This document shows positions 30,439 to 37,674 of a stretch of 64,000 nucleotides of DNA, in pieces (the first letter of the stretch is position 1; every line of letters begins with the position of its first letter). Both the position numbers and the translations under genes were made by a program. The notes beneath the pieces were generated by a model that did not search any database, was not told the DNA's origin, and saw only the letters and a list, made by a program, of their open reading frames with translations. The DNA is from Acidimicrobiia bacterium (GTDB lineage: Bacteria; Actinomycetota; Acidimicrobiia; IMCC26256; JAMXLJ01): assembly GCA_035651955.1 (NCBI GenBank), contig DASRES010000015.1:134208-198207 (forward strand), read 5' to 3'.

Positions 30439-30549
30439 CCACTCCATCGCGATGCGACCGTCGTGCTCGTCGGCCACCCCGAAGCCGAGCCGTTCGTACA
30501 GCGCGCGTGCGCGGACGTTGATCGCAAAGACGTGCAGTCGCACCGGCCG
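30439..30549 (-). pseudogene. Remnant of a GNAT acetyltransferase (C-terminal tail only)
   Basis: The minus-strand frame encodes PVRLHVFAINVRARALYERLGF and DEHDGRIAMEW, the last acetyl-CoA-binding helix and strand of a GNAT protein. Nothing upstream (30550-30620) resembles the rest of the domain; the SOS promoter of the DUF222-HNH gene lies there instead. No stop follows at the usual place, and the frame runs into the methyltransferase gene until 30388. A gene broken by insertion or deletion is the simplest reading. Confidence 0.7.
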
Positions 30550-30585
30550 GGCGTCCTGCTGCCGCGCCGGCTTTCCTGACGCGCA

Positions 30586-30614
30586 TTGACATCCGAACAT
30601 ATGTTCGCTATCAT
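30586..30614 (+). promoter_or_regulatory. SOS (LexA-type) box inside a near-consensus leaderless promoter
   Basis: TTGACA (30586-30591), a 17-base spacer and TATCAT (30609-30614); ATG 30621 begins six bases after the -10, at the expected transcription start. The spacer holds the perfect palindrome CGAACATATGTTCG (30594-30607), which matches the Gram-positive/mycobacterial LexA box pattern (CGAAC-N4-GTTCG). Strong DNA-damage-inducible promoter candidate. Confidence 0.85.
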
Positions 30615-30620
30615 TCAGGC

Positions 30621-31811
30621 ATGTTCGATCAGGGCGGGGTCGGGCACGCGGCGGAGACGTTCGATCAGTCCGAGTTGTTGGCGCGTCTGCGCGGGTGCTC
30701 GACGGAGGAGTTGAAGGTCGCGTTCGGGCAGTTGGACGCGTTGGAGAACGCGGTCCGAGTGCAGCGTCTGTTCGTGCTCGCGGTGTTGGACGAGCGCGAG
30801 GCCGGTGCGGACGACGGCGCGCTGGACACCGAGGCCTGGGTCGCGGCGCAGTCGTTGGTCACGCGTCCGCATGCGGTGCAGCAGGTCGCGACCGCCCGCG
30901 GGTTGAAGGAGCTCCCCCACGTCGCCGAGGTGGCGGCGCGCGGCGAGCTGAGCTGGGATCAGCTGGTGCCGTTGGCGGAGATCGCCGACGCAACGAGCGA
31001 CGAGTGGTGGGCTGCACATGGGCGCGGCTATTCGCCCGCGCAGCTCGGCTATCGGGCGCGCGTGAGGCGCACGGCGCGCAACGAAGAGGACGTGGCGCGC
31101 GAGCGGCAGCGGTCGTTGGTGTGGTGGTTCGACGCGCGGATCAAGATGCTGCGGCTGAAGGGCCGGCTCACTGCGGAGCAGGATGAGCGGCTGACGCGGG
31201 CGTTGGAACGGATCGTCGAGCGCGACCCCGTCGGCCCGGACGGCAGTGTCGAGTCGTGGGAGCAGCGGTACGCGGACGCGCTCGCGGACCTCGCGGGGAT
31301 GAACCTGGCCGCGGACAGCGACATGGATCGGGCGTGCGTCGTCGTGCACGTGGAGCACGACACCGCGACCGGCTTCGTCGGTGAACACGACGAGCCGTTG
31401 TCGCCGGAAATGTGTCGTCGGCTGGGCTGCGACGCGTGGATCCAGGTGTTGATCCGCGACGCGTTCGGCAACCCCGTCGGCCTGAGTGCCCGACAGCGAA
31501 CGGTGTCTCCCGCGTTGGCGCGCGTGTTGCGCCATCGGGACCGGACGTGCCGGTTCCCGGGGTGCACGCGCACGTGGGGGCTGCACGCACATCACATGGT
31601 GCACTACGAGCACGGTGGGCCGACCGAGGCGGGGAACCTGCTGATGCTCTGCCCCCGCCATCACCGTTGGGTGCACGAACACGGCTGGCGAGCGCGCGGC
31701 GATCCGAACCGCGCCGACGGGCTGGTGTTCCGACGACCCGACGCGCGCATCTACGCGCCCGGCCCACCACCCCTCGACCCGACCACCCGGCACCGCGTGT
31801 TCGCGGCGTAG
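30621..31811 (+). CDS. DUF222 and HNH endonuclease domain protein (13E12 repeat family)
   Basis: 396 aa. The N-terminal two thirds is the helical DUF222 domain (LARLRGCSTEELKVAFGQLDAL onward); the C-terminal HNH nuclease module (about residues 310-352) has CRFPGC, LHAHHMVHYEHGG, NLLMLCPRHH and the zinc-binding Cys pairs, all intact. This is the multicopy actinobacterial 13E12 family, whose cellular role is unknown. The gene stands alone, starts with a leaderless ATG under a perfect SOS box, and sits beside a broken GNAT gene, which suggests mobility. Codon use looks slightly less GC-biased than neighbours (more TTG and GTT). Confidence 0.93.
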   Translation: MFDQGGVGHAAETFDQSELLARLRGCSTEELKVAFGQLDALENAVRVQRLFVLAVLDEREAGADDGALDTEAWVAAQSLVTRPHAVQQVATARGLKELPHVAEVAARGELSWDQLVPLAEIADATSDEWWAAHGRGYSPAQLGYRARVRRTARNEEDVARERQRSLVWWFDARIKMLRLKGRLTAEQDERLTRALERIVERDPVGPDGSVESWEQRYADALADLAGMNLAADSDMDRACVVVHVEHDTATGFVGEHDEPLSPEMCRRLGCDAWIQVLIRDAFGNPVGLSARQRTVSPALARVLRHRDRTCRFPGCTRTWGLHAHHMVHYEHGGPTEAGNLLMLCPRHHRWVHEHGWRARGDPNRADGLVFRRPDARIYAPGPPPLDPTTRHRVFAA

Positions 31812-31824
31812 CGCGGCGCGCGGC

Positions 31825-37115: not shown

Positions 37116-37674
37116 GGCCCGAGACCTCCTCGTCGGTGTAGCCGCGCGGTTGCACGTCGCCCGGGAAGCCGATCGCCGCCCACACCGACCCGTCGCGGTT
37201 TCCCCCGTACTCGGGCGCGCCGTACGCGCCCTCGCACGCGTGCTCGTACAGCAGGTGACGGAATCCGGGCACCGCGGCGAGACGGCGGTCCTGCTCGTCG
37301 CCGTCGACCTCGCAGAAGTCGTCGCCGAGCGCGGCGATCCCGTCTCGGTAGCGCTGCTGCCACCCGACGACGGGTCCGTTGAACTCGCGCTCCGCGATCC
37401 CGTTCGAGCCCTCGATGCGTGTCCGCCACGCGAGCTCCTGCAGCCGCGTGAGCGGCGTGAAGCGCGCGAACGACGGTTCGCCGCCGTGTCGGCCCGAGAA
37501 CGGGCCGCCCGCGAAGATGCGGGGCGGGTCGAACGTGAACGCGCCGAGCAGCCCGTCGACGTAGTCGGTCACGCCGGCCGCGACCGCGCCCGGGTGCTCG
37601 CCTTCGGCGGGGATCAGCCGGTCGAGCGCGGCGCGGACGACCGCGTACGACTGCTCGTCGAACCAGACAGGCAC
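37108..37674 (-). CDS. Gluconate 2-dehydrogenase subunit 3-like protein
   Basis: 188 aa. Helical small subunit of GMC-type dehydrogenases; FDEQSYAVVRAALDRLIPAEGEHPGA and DYVDGLLGAF at the N-terminus match the family (PF13618). In known FAD-GDH complexes this subunit helps folding and export through a Tat signal; here no Tat or Sec signal is seen, so the complex is probably cytoplasmic. GTG 37674 overlaps the HyuA stop by one base (TAGTG), so it is coupled to both neighbours. Confidence 0.85.
   Translation of the reverse strand: MPVWFDEQSYAVVRAALDRLIPAEGEHPGAVAAGVTDYVDGLLGAFTFDPPRIFAGGPFSGRHGGEPSFARFTPLTRLQELAWRTRIEGSNGIAEREFNGPVVGWQQRYRDGIAALGDDFCEVDGDEQDRRLAAVPGFRHLLYEHACEGAYGAPEYGGNRDGSVWAAIGFPGDVQPRGYTDEEVSGRE

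Follow-up and report, generated by a model that had tools for sequence, protein, structure and literature searches.

A free-standing DUF222-HNH nuclease gene in the window, the 64,000-nucleotide stretch of DNA analysed here, reads as a true, damage-controlled representative of a known family, and its control by LexA and DNA damage is very probable. Judged from sequence, damage control through the host's own regulator has been conserved in much of the DUF222-HNH family, which some actinobacterial chromosomes carry many times over (30 copies in the 2.46 Mb genome G016) and which has no established function. We find most interesting that damage control appears to be kept through different operators in different lineages; if it is kept across lineages with three different control sequences, what these genes do must be linked to DNA damage and is hence directly testable. 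If this reading is true, the family would also be the most frequent gene with an SOS box in some genomes and may be a source of damage-induced rearrangement.

Promoter, operator and gene in the window

30586 to 30591, + strand: -35 hexamer TTGACA (direct reading and promoter scan)
30594 to 30607, no strand assigned: candidate LexA operator (SOS box) CGAACATATGTTCG in the -35/-10 spacer (palindrome; the motif also stands before lexA, recA, ruvC and uvrA)
30609 to 30614, + strand: -10 hexamer TATCAT (direct reading and promoter scan)
30621 to 31811, + strand: DUF222-HNH gene, 396 amino acids (open reading frame and Pfam)

The first-pass annotation had described a perfect SOS box in a near-consensus promoter, with TTGACA and TATCAT 17 nt apart around the palindrome and the ATG six bases past the -10, and all of these elements were recovered at the same coordinates. 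The hexamers match consensus at 11 of 12 positions and form the only sigma-70 site that the promoter scan returned in the region around the gene (mean in shuffles 0.0). With the ATG (30621) so close behind the -10, the transcript is predicted to be leaderless. A second ATG at 30601, inside the SOS box, lies in another reading frame than the gene, and 30621 is therefore kept as the start of the window copy. The CGAACATATGTTCG palindrome is the sole match in the window at ≤2 mismatches (chance expectation 0.03). A second perfect match to CGAACN4GTTCG, at 37467-37480, has no obvious promoter or gene start adjoining and is probably due to chance.

The reading frame matches DUF222 (PF02720, E 5e-19) and HNH (PF01844, E 2e-4), both above the Pfam gathering cut-off. 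As the annotation had noted, the gene has no partner: its downstream neighbour is convergent and none is co-directional.

SOS boxes in the source genome and its order

Perfect CGAACN4GTTCG sites number 30 in the 4.1 Mb source genome, against 1 for a reversed control pattern. They precede lexA (two boxes), recA, ruvC, a Y-family (IMS) polymerase gene, an ImuA-like gene, uvrA (identified from sequence reading) and a gene with an exonuclease domain. The same genome holds nine dispersed DUF222 copies, seven strong and two weak; in 7/7 strong copies an SOS box precedes the domain match by no more than about 175 nt, and the two weak ones (on contigs C77 and C89) have none. With a host-type operator overlapping its promoter, of the type found at lexA, recA, ruvC, uvrA and polymerase genes, the window gene is by all sequence indications a member of the LexA regulon, which strongly supports the damage control that had been proposed for it.

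Across the order, DUF222 is present in 18 of 21 sampled genomes, with up to 24 matches each. G016, a single contig, contains 39 perfect boxes, of which 30 belong to DUF222-HNH genes and one further box to ruvC; every one of these 30 genes has the identical CGAACATATGTTCG at its start. The start codon in G016 falls inside the palindrome (...AT ATG TTC GA.., giving MFD or MFE), directly after a TATAAT-like -10, an arrangement seen in many relatives but not in the window copy. We tabulated 54 copies from 16 genomes, with the source genome included and G016 left out; the LexA box is perfect in 28 copies and has one mismatch in 8 (36/54 at ≤1 mismatch). The box is thus carried by other members of the family: by all the strong copies of the source genome, by all those of G016 and by most in the order. 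Its absence from other members, which the annotation had named as counting against damage control, is therefore not what the survey shows.

Boxless copies share a different element, TTGTCACAC-N8-TAnnnT, which is of the RecA-NDp or PafBC type. For the RecA-independent damage promoter, through which PafBC acts (PMC6789036, PMC8223512), the consensus tTGTCRgtg-8 nt-TAnnnT has been published (PMC5656591). Among 18 boxless copies, the clade version occurs within 2 mismatches in 14 and within 3 in 17; none of 452 control windows matched it within 2. Other carriers in the surveyed genomes, identified from sequence reading, are radA, dnaB, the rpsF-ssb operon and a gene for a RecB-like nuclease, and in four genomes (G000, G001, G016 and G018) pafA is followed by tandem WYL genes (PafBC). 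LexA and RecA-NDp signals occur together in three copies of the source genome (L001, L002 and L005) and in the G016 copies, and the LexA signal occurs alone in the window copy, L006 and L007. Unlike L001, L002 and L005, the window gene (L004) has no TTGTCACAC-N8-TAnnnT upstream at ≤2 mismatches.

Two further loci carry elements of this kind. At L259 (G000:C40:2972-2994, near a gene of the pafA-like/Pup-ligase family), a RecA-NDp-type motif stands directly before a small zinc-finger protein (MKRCPDCGERKPPEEF...). At L011 (G000:C1 near 49842; about 1010-1535, - strand), a tRNA-Ala gene, followed by a LAGLIDADG-type endonuclease reading frame, is preceded by a perfect LexA box and a RecA-NDp-like stretch, CTGTCAGAC-N8-TATGCT. 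From its sequence, the LAGLIDADG frame adds another nuclease, not related to DUF222-HNH, with a dual damage promoter of the same type.

Operators in other phyla

Relatives in many phyla were recovered by an alignment-based scan; an earlier single-sequence scan of named genomes had given none. A de novo search of 20 actinobacterial and related loci recovered the dyad CGAAC-N4-GTTCG in 9, compared with at most 2 in shuffles. The specificity of proteobacterial LexA is well established, and 19 of 29 proteobacterial copies (15 genomes) have an E. coli-type LexA box, TACTGT-N8-ACAGTA, at p<0.05 (combined p 3e-19 against shuffles). One example, TACTGTATATTTATACAGTA, lies close upstream of the ATG, and the dyad TACTG-N10-CAGTA again emerged de novo. 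The proteobacterial copies have no box of the actinobacterial type, and no CTGT-N8-ACAG was seen on the actinobacterial copies. Taking the 36/54 copies with LexA boxes, the 17/18 boxless copies with a PafBC-type motif and the 19/29 with an E. coli-type box together, the family appears to be wired to each host's damage switch.

Some gammaproteobacterial copies (G025, G026 and G037) have no recognisable box. We recognised no operator on the copies from Gemmatimonadota, Rokubacteria and Acidobacteria, three groups whose LexA motifs are less familiar to us, and a de novo search in them found no shared palindrome above shuffles. Five rokubacterial loci (L145, L154, L156, L158 and L160) share a strongly conserved, non-palindromic promoter stretch (about GAAATCGGGGTGTAGAGTCGCC), which is possibly the damage operator of that phylum. 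Many of the gammaproteobacterial DUF222 copies in G031 and G029 (e.g., L229 and L249) lie at contig ends, as is expected because recent near-identical repeats break assemblies.

Protein domains and predicted fold

30741 to 31073, + strand: predicted ParB/Noc-like helix-turn-helix DNA-binding domain inside DUF222, residues about 41-151 (AF2 model, Foldseek, VIA-align, weak HTH_ParB)
31506 to 31727, + strand: HNH nuclease fold with zinc-binding cysteines, residues 296-369 (Pfam, fold comparison, conservation)

An AF2 model built on 67 sequences (m2dd981d77ab4) reached a pLDDT of 83.5 and a pTM of 0.56; a first model from 18 sequences was poor (pTM 0.42). In the larger model, residues 41-151 are similar to ParB, Noc, Spo0J and KorB, with Z up to 8.8 over 100 residues, in a range where a Z near 8 for helical domains can be chance. 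Weak HTH_ParB matches were found in 6 of 67 relatives (best E 0.014), and the stretch LPxxxxAxxxGxLSxxKVRAL presumably resembles the core of the ParB helix-turn-helix. At the nuclease end, model comparison matches residues 296-369 to the HNH domains of EcoKMcrA, TagI and IscB. The fold assignments cover these two parts, on either side of a middle part at about residues 155-295. Among the 67 relatives, C310, C315, H324, H325 and C344 are invariant, N339, H347, H348 and H352 are conserved in ≥90%, and the window protein carries all the conserved HNH catalytic and zinc residues.

Copy pattern and unit boundaries

30584 to 31820, + strand: shared unit of three 86%-identical copies, on contigs C15 (window copy), C23 and C8 (alignment, protein identity)
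30481 to 30567, - strand: C-terminal remnant of a GNAT acetyltransferase, N-terminal part missing (weak Pfam match, below cut-off)

The annotation had suggested self-mobility or DNA processing. Homology among the three copies of the shared unit runs from the -35 to about 9 bases past the stop codon, in unrelated flanks, and the GNAT remnant stops at the 5' boundary of this unit in the window. Homology among G016 copies likewise runs from TTGTC to the stop codon, and the flanks are unrelated even in pairs that are 89-91% identical. Moreover, when the gene is split into halves, 20 of the 30 G016 copies have a different nearest neighbour for each half (mean 10 and maximum 15 for random splits), which indicates that copies exchange sequence. 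A dN/dS of about 0.1-0.2 places most G016 copies under purifying selection. At least 2 of the 30 are broken: the reading frames of L115 (G016:C1 near 2017515) and L075 (near 717180) stop after 34 and 99 codons, and the SOS promoter is intact in both.

Copies present in one genome are absent from some relatives. G021 lacks one G016 copy between conserved genes, with 171 bp of diverged intergenic DNA in place of about 1,460; G022 lacks another; and in G001 the window gene is missing between the same neighbours, together with two other genes. The proposal of self-mobility or DNA processing is thus supported in part, by promoter-plus-gene units in unrelated flanks, presence or absence in relatives and mosaicism; no exact insertion footprint was seen, and the empty loci in G021 and G001 are inexact. 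On these alignments, the copies are consistent with a unit that spreads within chromosomes and undergoes gene conversion.

Neither terminal inverted repeats nor a target duplication could be found at the window unit or in the stacked G016 ends, so no known transposition mechanism applies. We considered and rejected a transposon bounded by terminal repeats or by a target duplication of TAG/TAA: many G016 copies have TAG/TAA ahead of TTGTC, but it differs from the stop codon at the opposite end, and by eye it fits a -35 of TTGTAG or TTGTAA, 17 nt from the -10. Phage or plasmid cargo was likewise rejected, as only 3 phage records (of 50,697) and 2 plasmid records (of 72,556) matched; a Rhodococcus plasmid homologue has a one-mismatch box just upstream, and the phage homologue has none. 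As judged from its reading frame and promoter, the window gene is a free-standing gene with a promoter of its own and does not fit an intron or intein homing endonuclease. It also matches no PADLOC model of a known anti-phage defence system.

Proposed mechanism and alternatives

We propose that the window gene is a damage-controlled, self-spreading chromosomal nuclease unit, an explanation that, taken as a whole, we lean towards. The gene would be a free-standing chromosomal nuclease gene under LexA repression that is switched on by DNA damage. LexA on the box inside the -35/-10 spacer would block RNA polymerase, and RecA-triggered cleavage of LexA would free a strong leaderless promoter, as the sequence and the M. 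tuberculosis data suggest. Through its predicted ParB/Noc-like DNA-binding domain and intact HNH domain, the protein would most likely bind particular DNA sites and nick or cut them during the damage response. From the copy pattern, we infer that the unit of damage promoter and reading frame may spread and gene-convert within chromosomes through the recombination activity of damaged cells. This self-spreading function is held tentatively, as the likeliest reading and one well short of shown. A wider version is speculative and, to us, doubtful: DUF222-HNH genes might be minimal selfish units across bacteria, each a damage promoter with a site-specific ParB-type HNH nuclease, that copy only with host recombination active and that re-evolve or acquire the host's damage operator in each lineage (actinobacterial LexA, PafBC or proteobacterial LexA).

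Alternatively, the genes could serve the host as a multicopy DNA repair or recombination nuclease family induced with the SOS and PafBC regulons, for example in a mismatch-repair-like role. Such a role was explicitly proposed, without biochemical tests, for the M. tuberculosis 13E12 HNH genes (van Dam et al. 2014, PMC4181829), and it would agree with the purifying selection on copies and with the operators held in common with ruvC, uvrA, recA and polymerases. It accords poorly with copy numbers anywhere between 0 and 30 in related genomes, with patchy occurrence at equivalent loci, with the unrelated surroundings of the units, and with the lack of any copy in G010 and in G022 of the G016 genus, and we regard it as unlikely.

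Less probable again is a suicide or anti-invader nuclease that degrades DNA under irreparable damage or phage attack. HNH enzymes that kill in stressed or SOS-induced cells are known: an HNH nuclease acts in M. smegmatis cell death (PMC9416677; MSMEG_1275, likened here at the HNH level), and phage P1 Ref cuts RecA-coated DNA (PMC4713147). Weak RecA_dep_nuc (Ref) profile matches in 3 of 67 relatives speak for this reading, though at an E of about 0.03. Against it, the window gene matches no PADLOC model and has no partner or immunity gene, and many copies are retained. Finally, that the palindrome arose by chance or serves another regulator, with no damage control, is hardly credible given 0.03 matches expected in the window, 30 sites against 1 genome-wide, its presence on lexA, recA, seven paralogues and 30/30 G016 genes, and perfect boxes in 0 of 172 downstream control windows.

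Comparison with known systems

The damage-controlled, self-spreading unit proposed here shares features with several described systems. With the RecA-NDp/PafBC promoters (M. smegmatis recA P1), the surveyed family has in common the TTGTC[A]-N11-TAnnnT spacing, a motif also found at radA, ssb and dnaB, and PafBC behind pafA; it differs in its clade version, TTGTCACAC-N8-TAnnnT rather than TTGTCRGTG, and the window copy is without it. Residues 41-151 share a predicted fold with the ParB/Noc/Spo0J/KorB domain, but at only 10-20% identity, with no CTPase domain seen in the DUF222 protein and with a nuclease fused to it. The HNH domains of EcoKMcrA, TagI, ScoMcrA and IscB have the same fold and metal or zinc residues, whereas no modified-base reader, RuvC domain or guide RNA was recognised in DUF222-HNH. 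Phage P1 Ref, a RecA-dependent nuclease, is likewise an HNH nuclease of the SOS response, and differs in the weakness of the profile similarity given above.

The closest counterparts are the 13E12 or REP13E12 genes of M. tuberculosis (Rv3074, Rv3776, Rv0515 and Rv1702c), likened here by their published descriptions as multicopy HNH genes with a LexA box and induction by damage (PMC8151990, PMC7911356, PMC5005354). The link of some mycobacterial 13E12 genes to LexA, which the annotation had mentioned, is borne out by the literature: 13E12 genes are LexA targets (PMC4181829), mitomycin C induces five M. tuberculosis HNH genes only with RecA present (PMC8151990), and moxifloxacin raises Rv3074 29-fold and Rv3776 22-fold (PMC7911356). 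Among the surveyed relatives, by contrast, promoters of the PafBC type and E. coli-type LexA boxes occur as well, and the start codon often falls inside the operator. Open-licence papers on DUF222 contained none on PafBC-type promoters, proteobacterial LexA boxes or a ParB-like domain. SOS induction of the family was already known in M. tuberculosis, and, within the papers searched, its breadth, the swapped operators and the predicted ParB-like domain are new.
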